Assembly (NCBI GenBank): GCA_019638675.1
Contig: JAHBTE010000001.1
Span: 62,001 to 126,000, forward strand
DNA: 64,000 bases
Reading direction: 5' to 3'
DNA from: Fimbriimonadaceae bacterium
GTDB lineage: Bacteria; Armatimonadota; Fimbriimonadia; Fimbriimonadales; Fimbriimonadaceae
Shown: positions 21,196 through 28,482 of the stretch, piece after piece
How positions within the stretch are numbered: position 1 is the first letter of the stretch
Layout: every line of letters starts with the position of its first letter
The notes under the pieces: generated by a model
What the model was told of the DNA's origin: nothing
Databases searched by the model: none
What the model saw: the letters and a program-made list of their open reading frames with translations, nothing else
Program-made: the position numbers and the translations under genes

Positions 21196-22695
21196 CTAAT
21201 CTTCGCCGAGTTTTGCGCTCGGACGAGCCCGGAGGGTTGCCCATTCGCGAAGGGCGGTGATGTCTTCGCTCATCATCCGGCTCAACGGCACTTGAGTTTC
21301 CGCTTCTTCTTTGATGTCCTTGAACGTCACTTCTCGGTCAGCAAAAAACGCATGGTTAAGTGCCCCAACCACTAGCTGCTCAATTTCTGCGCCGCTGAAT
21401 CCCGCTGTCACCTTAGCTAACTCTGCGACTTTGAACTTTTTAGGATCGCGTTTGCGTTTGCTCAAGTGAATGCGGAAAATCTCTTCTCGCTCCTTGGTAT
21501 CCGGAAGATCAACAAAAAAGATTTCGTCGAATCTTCCTTTCCGCATGAGTTCAGGAGGAAGTTGCTGAACATTGTTTCCAGTGGCAATCAAGAAAACCGG
21601 CTTCGTTTTTTCCTGCATCCAGGTCAGGAAGGTTGAAAACACTCGAGCTGTGGTTCCACTATCGCTTACTCCGCTGCCCATGCCGGCAAATCCTTTTTCT
21701 AGCTCATCGATCCACAAAACACAGGGGGCGAGGCTTTCCGCGATCTTGATGGCGCGACGCATGTTCTGTTCGCTTTGACCTACTAAGCTACCAAATATCC
21801 GACCGACATCCATCTTAAGCATCGGGAGGTTATAAGCGCTGGCGACCGCCTTTGCAACCAGAGATTTACCGCAACCTTGAACCCCAATAATGAGAATTCC
21901 TTTAGGGAACGGTATTCCGTAATCCCGCGCTGCGTCAGTGAAGCTCTTGGACCGTTTCACGAGCCAATCTTTGAGCAAATCGTGACCGCCAACATCTTTC
22001 ATTGAACTACTGCTGGGATAAAACTCCAACATTCCAGTTTTGCTGACAATTTGCTTTTTCTCTTCAATGATTTTGTCAACGGTGAGCTTCTTTTCTTCGA
22101 CCAAGCTACGAGCCAATGCGCTTTCAATCTCATCCGCAGTCAAGCCTTGTGCGCTACGGACAATAGATTCTCGGAGGTCATCGGGGAGGCTCACATCTAC
22201 ATTGGGCACATCCTTCATCGCGGCGATGACACTATCCAGTTGCCGTGAAATATCATCTTGCTCGGGCAGGGGGAAATCTAAGACCGTGACGTCTTTTTCT
22301 AGCTCTACCGGCAACACTAGCTGGGGTGCGACCATGATCAAAGTTTGAGCCTTGCCTCGCAAGCGAGCCGCCAAATCTCGGAGCAACCGGATCACCCGAG
22401 TGTCCTTCATATACGGATGAAAATCTTTGAGAAGAAAGACCGTGAACTCCGCGCTTTCGTGGATCTGCGCTAGAGCTTCAAGTTCTCCGGGAAGACTGCT
22501 TGCTTTCACTGGTCCGCTCGCTCGACGCACGGCTGGTTGCATTCCTTGCGTCACGCTCCAGGTATGAACTTGCCGATTGAGTTTTTCGCAGACCTTCCTG
22601 ATCGCGTCTTCGACTCGGCGTTCTTCCCAGCTTGAAATAAACAGAATCGGGTACTTGGCCCGAATCAGTACTTCAATCTCGCGTGTTGCATCCAT
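21196..22695 (-). CDS. AAA ATPase, Ycf46-like
   Basis: This 499-residue protein has a degenerate N-terminal AAA-like half (about 1-230, no Walker A). The C-terminal half is complete: Walker [13 protein letters not shown] (about 285), Walker [13 protein letters not shown], a sensor-1 region [13 protein letters not shown], and arginine fingers in RKGRFDE. This two-half design and length match Ycf46-type AAA proteins known from cyanobacteria and plastids. There one has been connected with inorganic-carbon use, but the biochemical role is poorly known. It is first in the operon, with TAGATT 6 bp before its ATG. Confidence 0.85.
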
Positions 22696-22760: not shown

Positions 22761-24545
22761 TTAAGCTACGCCTTGTCGAGACTCTGATTTCCGTAAGAGA
22801 TTGATTACATAGCCGATCACGCGCTTGTTGTCTTCCGAAGGATCAAGTTTGACGGACTTGATCCTGCCAGACTCACGCTTTATTCGATCTGCGTAGTGTT
22901 TCTCAGCAACTGATCGCTCATGCTGTGTTTCCTTCCGCCAGTTCTCCACCCAATCTAGAACTGAGTTTGATTCTGCAACGTAGCCTCGGAAGAACAATGC
23001 TCCGGCGGCCCATTCAAGGCCGATTTGCTGTTCACGTGAGGATCCACGTCGAAAACTTCTTTTCAAACCATCAACCAAAAGGTCAGTTCCCTTTTGAATT
23101 TCATCGTTGGCGATATAAGTAAGACCGGCGAGGGTATGGAACATCGCAAGCATGTTTTCGTTCGGTTCGCTACCCAGTGCAGTAAAAACCTCATTGGTCG
23201 CCATGAGAGCATTTTTCCAGTCACCTAAAATGATGTAAACGGTACACGTATTCGCCCAGTTGATTGCGTAATTCGCCCAAGCGAGAGGATTATCCTGTAG
23301 CAACAAAGCTTTTCTTACTTCAGCGTACATCGCAAGGGCTTTTTCATACTCGCCCATATGCCATCTAAACGAACCTTCCACTGCCTGACAGTTCATTGTT
23401 TTTACATAGTCATCAAGGCCCCTGTAAATTGCCGCCGATTCTTGAATCATCGTAACGGCCGACTCAAAGTCACGCCCTTGAAAAAAAGCGAAAGAACGAC
23501 CGAAGAAGGTACGCGCCCGACGAGGCAACTCCATTTCTTGGGCTAAGAGGTTATCCGTCTGATCAATTACCGCTTTCCAGTTGTAACGTAGCCCTTCAGC
23601 ATCAATAATCAGCAGTCTCATATCTTGCTCAATCTCGCCCATCACTTCATCAGTGGCTACGAGGTCGTACAAGAATTGGACATAGGTGCTCGGGTCACGA
23701 GCGAATTCCCGGGTTGCACCCGGTGTCATAAAAAAACTTGCGGCATCCTTGGGCGTATCCTCAATCGCCCGGGCGAGCAATCGCCCAAGATGGATCAACT
23801 GTGAATCTGTCCAGCGGTTTGCAACGTCAAACTGACCGGTTTTCAACTCTGCGATGTATTGCTTTAGTTCTTCCACCAGCGAACTGCCCCAATTGAACTC
23901 TTCTAATTTGCTGGCGGCTTTGAAATCCCGAATTCCTCGGTCAAGCTCATCAATAGTAGTAAGTGATCTTAGGTAGCTTTTCCACAGCTCAACATCGTTC
24001 AGCTCAAGTTTGAGGGCAGTCTGATATGCATCTGATATTAGCTGCCAATTTCCAGCTTCATTGGCTAAGTGGGCTAGTCGCTTGAGAACTCGTTTGGTTT
24101 CGGCACGCCACTCCTCTTGCCAGTGCCTCACCCATAGCTCGGAAATATCAGGCAGTAACGGCTTCCCGAGCTGAGGCAATATTGCAGTCAATGCTTCCAG
24201 TTCGTCACTCGGATCAATAAGGTCTGCGCTCGCTTGAATTCGTTTTTTGAGTTCTACATAGTCAACATTAATTTGTGAAACGTCGAGTGCCAGGTCAGCT
24301 CTGCCTATGATCAGCGCCTCTCCAACCATCTTTTTGAATCGAGTCAGGGCGACGCGGAGCCTGTTTCCAGATATCTCATAGTCTTCTTCCGGGTAAAGAT
24401 CCTTGGCGCACTTTCTTCGCTCAACATGCTCTGGAGCATGCAACATGAGGTAGGCGAGAAGGTACCCGCCCGAACCTAGGGAATATGATCTTCCAGTATC
24501 CTCTTCCACAAGCCGAGTGGTATCTAGAACCTCAAACCGAACCAT
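22761..24545 (-). CDS. SARP-like transcriptional activator with BTAD and TPR domains (copy A)
   Basis: The 594-residue protein starts with an OmpR-type winged helix (about 1-95): GGYLLAYLMLHAPEHVERR, NRLRVALTRFKKMVG and the wing before LALDVSQINVDYVELKK. A bacterial transcriptional activation (BTAD) helical domain follows (about 100-250), and then TPR-like repeats (about 330-530; ALAMYAEVRKALLLQ, GDWKNALMATNEVFTALG). This is the AfsR/SARP family layout without an NB-ARC domain. It is divergent from the PEP-CTERM gene at 24678, whose promoter carries a SARP-type direct repeat. It is paralogous to the protein encoded at 26692-28473. Confidence 0.85.
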   Translation of the reverse strand: MVRFEVLDTTRLVEEDTGRSYSLGSGGYLLAYLMLHAPEHVERRKCAKDLYPEEDYEISGNRLRVALTRFKKMVGEALIIGRADLALDVSQINVDYVELKKRIQASADLIDPSDELEALTAILPQLGKPLLPDISELWVRHWQEEWRAETKRVLKRLAHLANEAGNWQLISDAYQTALKLELNDVELWKSYLRSLTTIDELDRGIRDFKAASKLEEFNWGSSLVEELKQYIAELKTGQFDVANRWTDSQLIHLGRLLARAIEDTPKDAASFFMTPGATREFARDPSTYVQFLYDLVATDEVMGEIEQDMRLLIIDAEGLRYNWKAVIDQTDNLLAQEMELPRRARTFFGRSFAFFQGRDFESAVTMIQESAAIYRGLDDYVKTMNCQAVEGSFRWHMGEYEKALAMYAEVRKALLLQDNPLAWANYAINWANTCTVYIILGDWKNALMATNEVFTALGSEPNENMLAMFHTLAGLTYIANDEIQKGTDLLVDGLKRSFRRGSSREQQIGLEWAAGALFFRGYVAESNSVLDWVENWRKETQHERSVAEKHYADRIKRESGRIKSVKLDPSEDNKRVIGYVINLLRKSESRQGVA

Positions 24546-24605
24546 TACCTACCATTTTTCCAGAATTGGATGTTAAGGTAGCTGTGAATTCCGCTAATAA
24601 TTGTC

Positions 24606-24641
24606 CAGCTAATGATGATGTAATGATACGGAAAGCATAGT
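24606..24641 (+). promoter_or_regulatory. SARP-type operator/promoter of PEP-CTERM gene A
   Basis: Two TAATGAT heptamers lie at 24610-24616 and 24621-24627, giving an 11-bp period. They are followed by 8 bp and a -10-like CATAGT at 24636-24641. No other -35 is seen, so the downstream repeat would replace it. The same block occurs before PEP-CTERM gene B, with a single mismatch over the 22 bp from CAGC to the second heptamer. Confidence 0.72.
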
Positions 24642-24677
24642 GTAAATGGAGCGAGAGTTCCCCTTGAGAGAGAGATT

Positions 24678-25574
24678 ATGAAATTTGCACACTGCATTAC
24701 TGCGCCTATGGTTCTGGTTGGAATCGGGCTAGCTTCAGTTGCCAGTGCCCAAAGCCTTTTTTCGTTTGCTTCGACTAGCGTAGGCAATGAATGGGAATTT
24801 GGGTTTAACTCAGGCAACATCGCCCTCAATTCTTCTATCAGTACGAGTGGAAATCCTGTAACTTCCAACACAAATAAGAGTTTCAGTGGTCTTGACAGCA
24901 ACGGTCAAGCGCAGACAATGACACTGAATTCATCTGCATTTGCCACGGCACAGTATGGGATTTTGAAGTCAAGCGCGCAAGCTACTATCAACAACACATT
25001 CTTTGATTCTGGTAACCCATGGTATTGGAACCCCGAAACATCAGAGGTGAATGAAAACGGCGTCCCCGATTACTTCTTGGTCGCTGGGACATCCTCGTAT
25101 TCCGATGTCTTCACCTACACTGGCTTAGGAGCCGGATTTACGGTGAACTTCTACTACCATGTTGACGGAATCATGCAAGGTGATACGGCGTACAACGTTC
25201 TTCGAGTAACCAATAACGGAATAACTGAGAACTTTGATGTGGAAGCAGGAGCAAACGGAATTGTCAGCCAAACATTTGTGACTCAAAGATATACGCCAAA
25301 CGCGAACTCGCAAATCATCCACTCCACTTCATTGACAAGCGGAGTTTCCGCTCGGGTTTACGAAATGGATGAGGGCCTGAACATTGTGGGTAATTCTAAC
25401 TTCGCCAACACTGTTTCATTGGTTGGCATGGTCGCGTACGACGCCCAGGGCAATGTCGCTTCTGGTTGGTCATTTACAGCAGGTAGCGGCTCTACTTATC
25501 CTGTGCCGGAACCAGCCAGTATGAGCCTTTTAGCACTCGGTGCGGTTGCCGCCCTCAGACGAAAAAAGAAGTAA
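24678..25574 (+). CDS. PEP-CTERM secreted protein A
   Basis: This 298-residue exported protein has signal peptide MKFAHCITAPMVLVGIGLASVASAQ and a Ser/Thr/Asn-rich beta-type body. Its C-terminal sorting signal is VPEPASMSLLALGAVAALRRKKK (given here as its parts: VPEP, hydrophobic helix, RRKKK). PEP-CTERM proteins are processed by an exosortase, which is not in this window. It shares blocks with protein B: QYGILK followed by an asparagine-rich segment, NP[ED]T[SD]EVN, NG[VT]PD and a late LxGM. The leader has GAGAGAGAT before the ATG. The molecular function is unknown. Confidence 0.88.
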   Translation: MKFAHCITAPMVLVGIGLASVASAQSLFSFASTSVGNEWEFGFNSGNIALNSSISTSGNPVTSNTNKSFSGLDSNGQAQTMTLNSSAFATAQYGILKSSAQATINNTFFDSGNPWYWNPETSEVNENGVPDYFLVAGTSSYSDVFTYTGLGAGFTVNFYYHVDGIMQGDTAYNVLRVTNNGITENFDVEAGANGIVSQTFVTQRYTPNANSQIIHSTSLTSGVSARVYEMDEGLNIVGNSNFANTVSLVGMVAYDAQGNVASGWSFTAGSGSTYPVPEPASMSLLALGAVAALRRKKK

Positions 25575-25596
25575 AAACCTCGTTCAAATGAACTTT

Positions 25597-25622
25597 GCCC
25601 AAGCATTTGCTTGGGCTTTTTT
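25597..25622 (+). terminator. Intrinsic terminator after PEP-CTERM gene A
   Basis: GCCCAAGC and GCTTGGGC form an 8-bp stem around loop ATTT, followed by six T residues. It separates gene A from the promoter of gene B, so the two genes are transcribed independently. Confidence 0.9.
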
Positions 25623-25645
25623 GTATCAGTTTGATAAATTCTTTT

Positions 25646-25681
25646 CAGCTAATGATCATGTAATGATCGCGTGGATATATT
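25646..25681 (+). promoter_or_regulatory. SARP-type operator/promoter of PEP-CTERM gene B
   Basis: TAATGAT heptamers lie at 25650-25656 and 25661-25667, followed by exactly 8 bp and TATATT at 25676-25681. Sequence and spacing match the site before gene A, while the bases between the repeats and the -10 differ. This points to selection on the repeats and not just recent duplication. Confidence 0.75.
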
Positions 25682-25724
25682 TGATTTCAGAGCAGTTGCT
25701 CGAACTTGAGAGAGAGATAATTCC

Positions 25725-26642
25725 ATGAAATTTAGCCAGTCATTTGCATTGAGTGCAGTCCTCACCGCGCTCTGTATTACACAGGTCGGCCAAGCCCAAA
25801 CACATGGTCGAAACTCATTCGCGTTAGTTGGTGTGACCAATAATGGTTTCGAGAATTTTGCCCTTCGCGGTCTTGACGGAGATTATTCGGATACAGGCGG
25901 GTATGTCCAAGCTATGGGGACTGGCTCTTACAATGGCATGAACCGTAACGAAGAGTCCGGCACAATGTCGTTCAGTGGTTTTGGCAGTGCGAATGGCCAA
26001 TACGGAATTTTGAAAACTTATGGCTGGGGAGCCGTTTCCAACTCGTTCTATAACTCCTCCAACGAAATCTATTACAATCCAGACACCGACGAGGTGAATC
26101 CAAATGGAACACCCGATCGCTTTGTCTCATTTGGACAAGCCCAATACTTCGACTATTTTCAATATAGCAGTCCAACTGGCAACATCAGTGCGGGCGTAAA
26201 AGTTGACTTTTGGTATTACGTGCACGGAACCCTTTCTGGTGACAGTGCTTTCCATTCAATCTACGTTGAGAACGATGGCGATTCTGACACGTACCTCATC
26301 CAATCGAACGGTGGCACCCAGAACATCAATGAAATCTGGACAACCAAGAAGTTCACGATCGGAGCCGACTTGGCACTCCAGCACTCCACAACTATTGTGA
26401 GCCAGTTCGATAACCTTTCAACTGAGTACTGGGATGATAACAGTAACGTAGAGGGTACTGCAAATTTCGGAAGCACGATTACGCTCGGTGGAATGCACCT
26501 TTACGATGAGAACGATAACCTCATCTCAGACTGGACAATGACTTCTCTTTCCGGCACCGATTACGAAGCCGTGCCGGAACCCACAACCATGGCTCTACTG
26601 GGTGTCGGGGCCATAGCCGCTCTCAAGAGAAGAAAGGTTTAA
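25725..26642 (+). CDS. PEP-CTERM secreted protein B (paralogue of A)
   Basis: This 305-residue protein has a signal peptide (MKFSQSFALSAVLTALCITQ, cleavage near GQAQ) and a beta-rich body with many Gly, Asn, Ser and Tyr. The C-terminal PEP-CTERM sorting signal comprises VPEPTTMALLGVGAIAAL plus KRRKV. It aligns with protein A through most of the length, for example QYGILK, YNPDTDEVNPNGTPDR and NFGSTITLGGM. No enzymatic domain is recognised; a surface or matrix role is likely for the family. The leader resembles that of gene A (CTTGAGAGAGAGAT). Confidence 0.88.
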   Translation: MKFSQSFALSAVLTALCITQVGQAQTHGRNSFALVGVTNNGFENFALRGLDGDYSDTGGYVQAMGTGSYNGMNRNEESGTMSFSGFGSANGQYGILKTYGWGAVSNSFYNSSNEIYYNPDTDEVNPNGTPDRFVSFGQAQYFDYFQYSSPTGNISAGVKVDFWYYVHGTLSGDSAFHSIYVENDGDSDTYLIQSNGGTQNINEIWTTKKFTIGADLALQHSTTIVSQFDNLSTEYWDDNSNVEGTANFGSTITLGGMHLYDENDNLISDWTMTSLSGTDYEAVPEPTTMALLGVGAIAALKRRKV

Positions 26643-26663
26643 CTGTTCCTTAAGTTCATTGCA

Positions 26664-26693
26664 TTGCCCGAGCTTAGGCTCGGGCAACTTTTT
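26664..26693. terminator. Terminator between PEP-CTERM gene B and regulator B
   Basis: TTGCCCGAGC and GCTCGGGCAA form a 10-bp stem with loop TTAG, followed by CTTTTT on the plus strand. The hairpin sits between convergent genes and the T-run reaches the stop codon of regulator B. It should stop plus-strand transcription and may also act on the minus strand. Confidence 0.85.
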
Positions 26694-28473
26694 ATGCGGA
26701 GTCTCTGGCTTGTGATTCCGCCTCTCTCAACCTCGAAATCAAGTAGTTCATCACTTTTTTTGTACTTTCATTCGGATCAATTCGTTCACCAGGTTTTAGT
26801 TGGTGTAGGCCGATGATCCAATCAGCATACTTTTGCTCTGCTATAGATCTCGTATGTTCCGTCCGATATCGCCAGGCATTCACCCAGTCGAGGAGGGCTA
26901 CTGCATCTTTGTGCATGCCAGCAAAAGTTAAAGCTCCGATAGCCCATTCCATCGAAATTTGCTGATCGCGCGATGCTCCTCTCCGGTATGCCCTTCTCAG
27001 TCCATCGCTTAGATAATTAACGCCTTTCGTCCATTCCCCCTTTTGACAATTTACAATTCCAACAAGCGCATGGAACATTGGGAGCATATTTTCGTTGGGC
27101 TCCCGTTCCAGAGCTTCAAAAGCATTTTGAGTGGCTTTGTAAGCTTCTTCCCAGTTACCTAGAATCACATAAACGGCAGTCGTGTTCGACCAAATAACAG
27201 AAAGGTTTGAACGCACCAAGGGGCGATCCGTATTCCCCAATTCCGTGATTCCAAGCATATACAACTCTAGAGCTTTTTCGTATTCCCCGATATGCCACCT
27301 AAATGAGCCTTCACTCACTCGACAGTTGATGGCTCTTAAGTAATCGCCACTTTTCTCGCTGGTATCAATTGCCTCTTGAATTGTAGCGAGTGCTCCTTCA
27401 AAATCTCTCCCTTGAAACTGGGCAAATGACCTTACAAAACCTACCCTCGCCCTCTGGTTGAGGTTCAAATCCATCTTCATAAGAATGGCTGTTTGTTCAA
27501 TGATTATTTTCCAATCGTTTTCTTTTCCGTGCACTGCCTCAAGAACTCGTATGCGAGTATCTATCTCTTGAGATTTACTCAGTTGTCCCGATTCAGTTAA
27601 TTGTATTAAGAACTTGAGATATGCCTTCCGATCGCGATTGAACTCGCCCTCGGCTCCTCTGGACGTAAAAAAAGCGGCTGCATCTTCGGGGGAATCTTCG
27701 ATGCCCCTCGCTAAAATTCTGCCCAAAACAATCAACTCTTCCTCTGTCCATCTATTGGCTACATCAGGGCCAGGAACCGCCAGAGAGTTGCAAAACTCAA
27801 TTAGTTCGATCGCTTCTTCTTTGGAGATATCTGAGGCTTCTTTGGCCAGCCCGATCTCCCTAATCCCTTGCTCGATTCGATTCAACTCATGCAAAGACCG
27901 GAGATACTTTTGCCAAATGGGGATAGAGCTTGGATCGTGAGCCAGTGCCGCTTTGGATGCTTCGACGGCTAATCCCCACTGCTTAGTATCACAACACAGA
28001 TCATAGAGCCGCACTAATCTTGTGACACATAGCTTTCGCCAAGACTCTTGCCAATCTAAAAGCCAAAGTCCGCTCTCATCTGAAAGCAGATCTTCTTTAA
28101 ACTTGGGCAAGAGTCCAGCCAGCCGATCAAGCTCGTCCTGCTCGTCAATTTCATCAGTTGCTTTTCGCAGTGCTTTTTGAATCGCTATTGCATCGACCTC
28201 AACTAAATCTAAGTTGAGCTTCAACTGGTCGCGATCAACATTAAGCGCATCACCTAGCTGCTTTTTTAGCCTAACAAGAGCTACTCTTAAACGATTGCCT
28301 GATACTTCGTATTCGTCGTCGGGATAAAGGTCTGCGGCACAGCGCCGTCTTTCAACCCACTCTCCGTCATGTTTTGCTAAATATCCTAATAGATTTGCGC
28401 TTGATCCTAATTTGACTTCTTTGCCATCTTCCAGGATCAACCGGGCAGAACCAAGGAGATGCAGAGTGATCAT
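26692..28473 (-). CDS. SARP-like transcriptional activator with BTAD and TPR domains (copy B)
   Basis: This is a 593-residue paralogue of the protein at 22761-24545, with the same order: winged helix (NRLRVALVRLKKQLG), BTAD-like helical region and TPR-like repeats (EKALELYMLGITELG, GNWEEAYKATQNAFEALE). Conserved blocks include GSFRWH[IM]GEYEKAL, EPNENML and a C-terminal IAEQKYADWI segment. The ATG at 28473 has a TAGAAT element 9 bp upstream; an in-frame TTG lies at 28479. It is convergent with PEP-CTERM gene B. Four tandem 9-bp units lie directly upstream of its promoter. Confidence 0.85.
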   Translation of the reverse strand: MITLHLLGSARLILEDGKEVKLGSSANLLGYLAKHDGEWVERRRCAADLYPDDEYEVSGNRLRVALVRLKKQLGDALNVDRDQLKLNLDLVEVDAIAIQKALRKATDEIDEQDELDRLAGLLPKFKEDLLSDESGLWLLDWQESWRKLCVTRLVRLYDLCCDTKQWGLAVEASKAALAHDPSSIPIWQKYLRSLHELNRIEQGIREIGLAKEASDISKEEAIELIEFCNSLAVPGPDVANRWTEEELIVLGRILARGIEDSPEDAAAFFTSRGAEGEFNRDRKAYLKFLIQLTESGQLSKSQEIDTRIRVLEAVHGKENDWKIIIEQTAILMKMDLNLNQRARVGFVRSFAQFQGRDFEGALATIQEAIDTSEKSGDYLRAINCRVSEGSFRWHIGEYEKALELYMLGITELGNTDRPLVRSNLSVIWSNTTAVYVILGNWEEAYKATQNAFEALEREPNENMLPMFHALVGIVNCQKGEWTKGVNYLSDGLRRAYRRGASRDQQISMEWAIGALTFAGMHKDAVALLDWVNAWRYRTEHTRSIAEQKYADWIIGLHQLKPGERIDPNESTKKVMNYLISRLREAESQARDSA

Positions 28474-28482
28474 GCTCAATTA

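Follow-up and report, generated by a model that had tools for sequence, protein, structure and literature searches.

SARP-type regulators with a TPR domain and a probable common operator at PEP-CTERM protein genes of a Fimbriimonadaceae bacterium (Armatimonadota)

Results

Regulators of the SARP type adjoin genes for PEP-CTERM proteins in a Fimbriimonadaceae bacterium (Armatimonadota), and the promoters of these genes carry a matching site at SARP spacing, so that, judging from the sequence, an exosortase surface-protein system in this organism appears to be governed by a switch of a type already known. Our best reading, with a probability of roughly 0.8, is that the two regulators, RegA and RegB, are SARP-TPR activators that share one operator and are either redundant or differ in their input. 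The window, i.e. the whole stretch of DNA analysed, comprises 64,000 nt (GCA_019638675.1, contig JAHBTE010000001.1, forward strand 62,001-126,000) of a 2.85-Mb genome, labelled G000 here, with relatives labelled G003, G005, G006, etc.

The four ORFs are arranged as in the preliminary description, namely RegA (22761..24545, minus strand), PEP-A (24678..25574, plus), PEP-B (25725..26642, plus), and RegB (26692..28473, minus; ATG start at 28473, with an alternative TTG at 28479 possible). Each secreted gene had been credited with its own promoter and terminator. Rho-independent terminators indeed follow PEP-A (25597..25622, plus; hairpin GCCCAAGCA/TGCTTGGGC at 25597-25616 and a T-run) and PEP-B (26664..26693, plus; hairpin TTGCCCGAGC/GCTCGGGCAA at 26664-26687 and a T-run), and the promoters can be defined more sharply as a TAATGAT-N4-TAATGAT direct repeat of 11-bp period with a -10 element exactly 8 bp past the 3' repeat. 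Operator A (TAATGAT-GATG-TAATGAT, 24610..24627, plus, wider conserved block 24606-24627) is followed by CATAGT (24636..24641, plus) and operator B (TAATGAT-CATG-TAATGAT, 25650..25667, plus, wider conserved block 25646-25667) by TATATT (25676..25681, plus). Both genes further share a leader/RBS block (CTTGAGAGAGAGATTAT, 24663..24679, plus, in PEP-A; CTTGAGAGAGAGATAAT, 25705..25721, plus, in PEP-B). An AAA+ ATPase gene (21196..22695, minus) lies outside the switch. In G003 it is a syntenic anchor beside the slot of the regulator, and G005 and G006 have 499-aa ORFs at its position.

RegA and RegB (594 and 593 aa) are paralogues (44% identity, BLASTP E=3e-173) with the blocks NRLRVAL, GSFRWH, and EPNENML in common, as originally noticed. 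Their SARP/BTAD label needed proof, since neither is matched by Pfam BTAD and the Trans_reg_C match is sub-threshold; within the regulator family, Pfam BTAD matches 6/19 members, RegA and RegB not among them. The label holds because the family profile matches AfsR (8k60; E=5e-19, residues 5-260) and also EmbR (E=1e-6), and the RegA model (residues 1-244) aligns with AfsR over 238 residues (Z 17.7, rmsd 4.5), running through the BTA of AfsR (chain 24-271) with the BTAD directly after the winged helix. The winged helix and BTAD of RegA (~1-244) pass straight into a TPR superhelix (~244-564) without an NB-ARC/NOD ATPase in between, and Pfam scans found no NTPase family in RegA, RegB, or the 19 family members. 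The DNA-contacting residues R87, R92, R94, and K95 of AfsR map to R64, R69, K71, and K72 of RegA, R64 being invariant among 19 relatives, and the recognition helices of RegA and RegB are nearly identical despite the 44% overall identity. In scans of genome contigs, an alignment of two regulator sequences gave no match and one of the clade-II regulators gave five loci. Autoregulation is not supported, since the only TAATG repeats near both regulator genes are the two PEP operators.

PEP-A and PEP-B are likewise paralogous (35% identity, E=5e-57) and have the previously listed motifs QYGILK and NP[ED]T[SD]EVN in common. Both combine an N-terminal signal peptide with a C-terminal PEP motif, hydrophobic helix, and basic tail (PF07589 at 29.4 and 29.5 bits, cut-off 20.7; the TIGR02595 match also exceeds its cut-off), from which sorting and surface location are predicted, and a single exosortase gene is encoded in the genome (PF09721, C1:1418872-1419636, E=1.9e-37). 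The ectodomain is beta-rich in PEP-A and jelly-roll-like in PEP-B (model pLDDT 84). Foldseek with the PEP-B model gave no match of usable TM-score and a second comparison gave weak jelly-roll matches (Bd1399, Z 9.0; PA14 and CBM61, about 7); thus, a carbohydrate-binding-like function for this modelled domain is only a lead.

The exact TAATGAT-N4-TAATGAT repeat occurs in the genome upstream of PEP-A and PEP-B only, and a TAATGGT version stands at one more PEP-CTERM gene. The published rule for SARP operators (PMC10936776) sets the direct repeats at a distance of 11 or 22 bp and leaves 8 bp between the 3' repeat and the -10, and both promoters conform to it. Scanning 23 genomes of the same family, including our own, for TAATGNTN4TAATGNT gave 12 matches, nine of which immediately precede PEP-CTERM genes (binomial 7e-22), and the reversed control gave three. 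A repeat of at least 7/8 at a period of 11 bp was found in 15/22 linked promoters vs 6% in shuffles; unlinked PEP promoters reached this level in 9/37 cases, mostly AT-rich and out of register, and only our own PEP-C (L031) among these nine had a TAATG core. Across 18 sites, two of which were put in register by hand, the -10 match peaked at spacing 8 (mean 3.44/6; next best spacing 2.28), with A2/T6 kept in 14/18. The half-sites vary jointly, with TAATGAT twice at our PEP-A and TAATGGT twice in G003. As to residue 65 of the regulators, V65 occurs with a TAATG core and T65 with TCACG/TAGCG, in two cases.

The linkage extends well beyond this locus: of 36 regulator loci in Fimbriimonadaceae, 21 have a PEP-CTERM gene next to them, against an expectation of about 1.4, and the association is kept over many genera. 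Together with the SARP-type operator, this bears out the initial proposal of a SARP-type regulator and PEP-CTERM pairing in a non-actinobacterial lineage. The operator repeat is present at 11/12 regulator-linked PEP homologues vs 0/3 unlinked ones. One homologue (G013 C16) is linked to a regulator yet has no canonical operator upstream, and several distant regulator loci have neither a PEP neighbour nor a clear repeat.

Discussion

RegA and RegB would activate transcription in the manner of SARPs and sense a signal through the C-terminal TPR domain. Two protomers would bind side by side on the TAATGAT heptamers, which have an 11-bp period and would stand in for the -35 element in both PEP promoters. 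The bound regulator would recruit RNA polymerase to the -10 element 8 bp downstream, PEP-A and PEP-B would each be made from a single-gene transcript and exported, and the exported proteins would be processed by the single exosortase. Most likely, RegA and RegB act on the same small regulon, because the core operator is common to PEP-A, PEP-B, and an unlinked third PEP-CTERM gene (G000:C1:1761957) and the recognition helices are near-identical. A difference between the two regulators, if any, would lie in the signal sensed by their TPR domains, i.e. in a putative TPR ligand. Against a role as activators stands the report of a negatively acting SARP, Atr32 (PMC10972967).

The closest parallel is AfsR, a large SARP of Streptomyces coelicolor, which shares with RegA and RegB the OmpR-type winged helix and BTAD, the C-terminal TPR, the conserved phosphate-contacting residues, and an 11-bp direct-repeat operator replacing the -35 at 8 bp from the -10 (here predicted from sequence). 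Unlike AfsR (993 aa), the regulators of about 594 aa lack the NB-ARC/NOD ATPase between BTAD and TPR, their putative target is a surface-protein gene, their operator is TAATGNT, and their host belongs to the Armatimonadota. The SARP domain is also common to the small, medium, and SARP-LAL regulators RedD, ActII-ORF4, CdaR, and PimR of Streptomyces, whose SARPs likewise use heptamer repeats with 4-nt spacers (PMC5930380), while a SARP with TPR but without NTPase falls outside the four size classes given for that genus (PMC10972967). GSU1771 of Geobacter sulfurreducens is another SARP-family regulator outside Actinobacteria, the deletion of which alters expression of the exosortase gene epsH and PEP-motif proteins (PMC10599522, PMC12325454). 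It differs in being a global biofilm regulator with response-regulator receiver architecture, and the parts of these two papers available to us describe neither a local pairing nor an operator. RRNPPA peptide sensors (Rap, NprR, PlcR, AimR), TPR regulators whose cognate secreted peptide is encoded alongside them, resemble the TPR superhelix in fold (Z 17-24) but differ by another DNA-binding domain and no sequence-level membership.

It is possible, though less likely than not, that RegA and RegB integrate two signals at the same operators, either through different TPR ligands or with one of them as antagonist or repressor. The conserved DNA-binding helices in otherwise divergent proteins, the likeness of the TPR part to peptide-sensing folds, and the separate origin of a Reg-PEP-Reg arrangement in G010 speak for such an integration, whereas RegA is dispensable in G003 and the TPR match reflects a common superhelix that LGN, MalT, and kinesin light chain match too. 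Somewhat more speculative is a phylum-wide extension, in which Armatimonadota would possess dispersed SARP-TPR/PEP-CTERM switches with operator cores matched to their own recognition helices (TAATG for the NRLRV-type helix, other cores for divergent helices) and TPR domains sensing a secreted peptide or the state of the cell surface, each activator lying beside a PEP-CTERM gene of its own. Local one-component signalling might then pick the displayed surface protein, and the twin locus might represent two sensors wired to one operator.

The preliminary description had instead explained the locus by duplication of a whole regulator-effector unit into two parallel switches, with RegA controlling PEP-A and RegB controlling PEP-B independently. 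Gene order and orientation agree with this, RegA being divergent from PEP-A and RegB and PEP-B converging, and so does the paralogy of both pairs, but PEP-A and PEP-B carry the same operator and the recognition helices hardly differ, which makes independent control unlikely. Moreover, the sister genome G003 retains both PEP genes and both operators with RegB only, RegA being cleanly absent from its slot. The trees expected to reveal co-duplication do show a split in each family, but the splits cover different genomes: the RegA/RegB split is seen in our genome, G003, and G007 only, while the PEP-A/PEP-B split takes in G006 (PEP-A with our A) and G008 (PEP-B-type with our B), where the linked regulator belongs to another clade (about 23% identity). 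Thus, the two families have partly different histories, and co-duplication of the cassette is rejected both on the trees and on G003.

Chance adjacency with a coincidental repeat, or one serving another factor, might be considered, since genomes of this genus encode 42-64 PEP-CTERM tails each, but the excess of linked loci, the concentration of pattern matches at PEP-CTERM promoters, and the joint fit of period and spacing to the SARP rule make it very improbable. The PrsR/PrsK/PrsT system of Proteobacteria (PMC1569441) resembles our locus in its dedicated regulator, common upstream site, and single-gene PEP-CTERM transcripts, and pepA is RpoN-dependent (PMC9850573); it differs in its sigma-54 -24/-12 promoter and NtrC-type activator, neither of which is found at PEP-A/PEP-B. 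Such control is rejected here despite a PrsR-like NtrC-family protein at C1:2593448 (383.7 bits, under the 502.6 cut-off), as the 150 bp preceding PEP-A and those preceding PEP-B contain no -24(GG)/-12(GC) element, the best sigma-54-like match there is no better than in shuffles, and Haft 2006 found the motif in Proteobacteria only (PMC1569441).

SARPs are chiefly known as activators of actinomycete antibiotic clusters. If RegA and RegB are indeed activators sharing one operator, the AfsR activation geometry would extend to a distant phylum, exosortase substrates of Armatimonadota would gain their first direct regulatory link, and natural regulator-operator pairs would become available in which recognition helix and heptamer might jointly reveal the specificity. 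In the literature searched, outside of which most subscription journals lie, no paper combined PEP-CTERM with Armatimonadota or Fimbriimonas, PEP-CTERM with SARP gave two Geobacter papers only, and the only PEP-CTERM promoter system was the sigma-54/PrsR one of Proteobacteria, reported absent elsewhere (PMC1569441). As a minor observation on the PEP-A promoter, an additional TAATAAT at 24595 lies 15 bp ahead of the first heptamer, off the 11-bp register.

Regulators of SARP type flank two PEP-CTERM genes

The locus comprises RegA (22761-24545, minus strand), PEP-A (24678-25574, plus), PEP-B (25725-26642, plus) and RegB (26692-28473, minus); gene order and positions, the sequence blocks common to the regulators and to the secreted proteins, and a separate terminator hairpin for PEP-A and for PEP-B were all found as claimed in the preliminary description. 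RegA and RegB share 44% identity over their full length and the PEP-A and PEP-B proteins 35%, both of the latter exceeding the PEP-CTERM cut-off of Pfam. The predicted model of PEP-B is all-beta, jelly-roll-like and weakly similar to sugar-binding modules, and both proteins would be exported and then sorted by the single exosortase of the genome.

Since RegA and RegB yield only a sub-threshold Trans_reg_C match and weak TPR matches, Pfam alone is insufficient to prove a SARP identity. A profile of 19 relatives matched both AfsR, across residues 5-260 (E=5e-19), and EmbR (E=1e-6), and residues 1-244 of the RegA AlphaFold2 model (pLDDT 90) can be aligned with AfsR as seen in the transcription initiation complex (238 residues, Z 17.7, rmsd 4.5), so that the SARP-type label stands. 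Residues 244-564 align to TPR superhelices, including the peptide sensors Rap, NprR, PlcR and AimR as well as MalT domain III. The AfsR residues R87, R92, R94 and K95, which touch DNA in the cryo-EM structure (PMC10936776), correspond in the alignment to R64, R69, K71 and K72 of RegA, with R64 invariant in 19/19 regulators. No NTPase domain lies between the SARP part and the TPR of the regulators, and this layout therefore falls outside the small, medium, large and SARP-LAL classes.

An AfsR-like operator and promoter

Upstream of both PEP genes we found CAGCTAATGAT[G/C]ATGTAATGAT, i.e. two TAATGAT heptamers with an 11-bp period (24610-24627 for PEP-A, 25650-25667 for PEP-B), followed after exactly 8 bp by the -10 elements CATAGT (from 24636) and TATATT (from 25676). 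Hexamers at the -35 match poorly (1-4 of 6 positions), and the heptamers occupy the place expected for a -35. Published SARP promoters fit the same terms, with direct repeats at a distance of 11 or 22 bp and 8 bp separating the 3' repeat from the -10 (PMC10936776), and the minimal PimR box consists of two heptamers with 4-nt spacers (PMC5930380). The likeness to AfsR extends from the aligned SARP domain and matched DNA-contact residues to the repeat and spacing at the promoters. We consider it about 80% probable that the regulators bind the heptamers as dimers, protomers side by side in place of the -35, and once bound switch on transcription in the manner of AfsR; the TPR part would respond to a ligand. 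The exact operator occurs in the 2.85-Mb genome only at PEP-A and PEP-B, while TAATGGT-CGTC-TAATGGT, again with 8-bp spacing, precedes one further PEP-CTERM gene (G000:C1:1761957-1762610).

Conservation of linkage and operator

The linkage recurs across genomes. With regulator loci picked on regulator score alone (the third regulator of the genome under study via a wider profile), a PEP-CTERM gene was the direct neighbour at 21 of the 36 loci with enough flank, compared with about 1.4 expected from 42-64 PEP-CTERM tails per genome (binomial about 1e-20). A period-11 repeat of at least 7/8 was present in 15/22 linked PEP promoters vs 6% of dinucleotide shuffles, all other periods being far behind. 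Among homologues of the PEP-A/B ectodomains, the TAA[TC]G repeat accompanied 11/12 regulator-linked but 0/3 unlinked genes (Fisher p=0.009). Half-sites of PEP-A promoters vary in concert between relatives: TAATGAT/TAATGAT here, TAATGGT/TAATGGT in G003 despite 96% protein identity, and TAACGGC/TAACGCC in G006.

Scanning 37 genomes (23 of the same family, the Fimbriimonadaceae of the Armatimonadota, own included) for TAATGNTN4TAATGNT gave 12 matches within the family vs 3 for the reversed control pattern, and nine of the 12 were just upstream of PEP-CTERM genes. Over 18 non-identical sites (register set by the TAATG/TAACG core in 16, by hand for G010 C6 and G013 C11), the match to TATAAT peaked sharply at spacing 8 (3.44/6; next 2.28), with A2 and T6 of the -10 retained in 14/18. 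Outside the family but within the order, the pattern precedes one PEP-CTERM gene and also the genes of a secreted dockerin-like protein and of WD-repeat-like proteins (loci L158, L160 and L161 of G045, L157 of G043), hinting that this operator class is more widespread. One linked PEP gene in G013 (C16, L131) has no forward operator, but about 164 bp before its called start the other strand reads ACTAATG-CATA-ACTAATG.

On contig C11 of G013, the recognition helix reads SLRTALHRVKK, not NRLRVALxRxKK, and the neighbouring PEP-CTERM gene is preceded by GTCACGG-TGCT-GTCACGG-8 bp-GACAAT. The distant third SARP-TPR regulator of the genome under study (L146:360-2144, 594 aa) has directly after it a PEP-CTERM gene preceded by TGCTAAC-GATT-TGCAAAC-8 bp-GAGAAT. 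Helix and heptamer may co-vary, judging from these few cases. The region G000:C1:1756359-1762610 (L146 360-6610) holds this pair and, 3 kb further, the PEP-CTERM gene with the TAATGGT operator.

Partly separate histories of regulators and PEP genes

Two parallel switches arising by duplication of one regulator-effector pair, as the preliminary description had it, find no support in the trees or in the gene content of G003. PEP-A-type genes occur here and in G003, G007 and G006, PEP-B-type genes here and in G003, G007 and G008, and an additional B-like lineage in G005/G006; yet the regulators linked to them in G005, G006 and G008 are from a different clade (about 23% identity to RegA/RegB), in G005 and G006 occupying the same slot and adjoining an ATPase-sized (499-aa) ORF. 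RegA clusters with the regulator of G007 (95/92). RegB clusters with the G003 regulator (100/100); in that genome RegA is missing entirely from the junction of the ATPase gene and PEP-A, and PEP-A is retained with its operator. In G006 (L120, 6026-7803), a frameshift, through decay or assembly error, splits the regulator into 172 and 437 aa beside two intact PEP genes. Given the trees, the missing RegA and the split regulator, the two families have partly separate histories, and one regulator alongside two PEP genes is a common state.

Two sister regulators (100/99) around a single PEP-CTERM gene in G010 represent an independent doubling. The locus holding them (L118, G010:C6:47000-61000) also contains a perfect TAATGATN4TAATGAT with TACGAT at 8-bp spacing, aimed at a secreted hydrolase-like gene past the second regulator.

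Relation to known PEP-CTERM control

The sigma-54/PrsR system of Proteobacteria, reported to be confined to them (PMC1569441; PMC9850573), is the only PEP-CTERM control described in the literature searched, and its promoter element is absent from the 150 bp upstream of PEP-A and of PEP-B. The same search found no paper linking PEP-CTERM to Armatimonadota or Fimbriimonas. Transcriptomes of Geobacter show a SARP-family regulator affecting epsH and PEP-motif proteins (PMC10599522, PMC12325454), which is an indirect precedent. A modified form of a known type of switch would here be coupled to an unexpected output. The genome also encodes a PrsR-like NtrC-family response regulator (G000:C1:2593448-2594572; TIGR02915, 383.7 bits, below the 502.6 cut-off), which possibly controls other PEP-CTERM genes.
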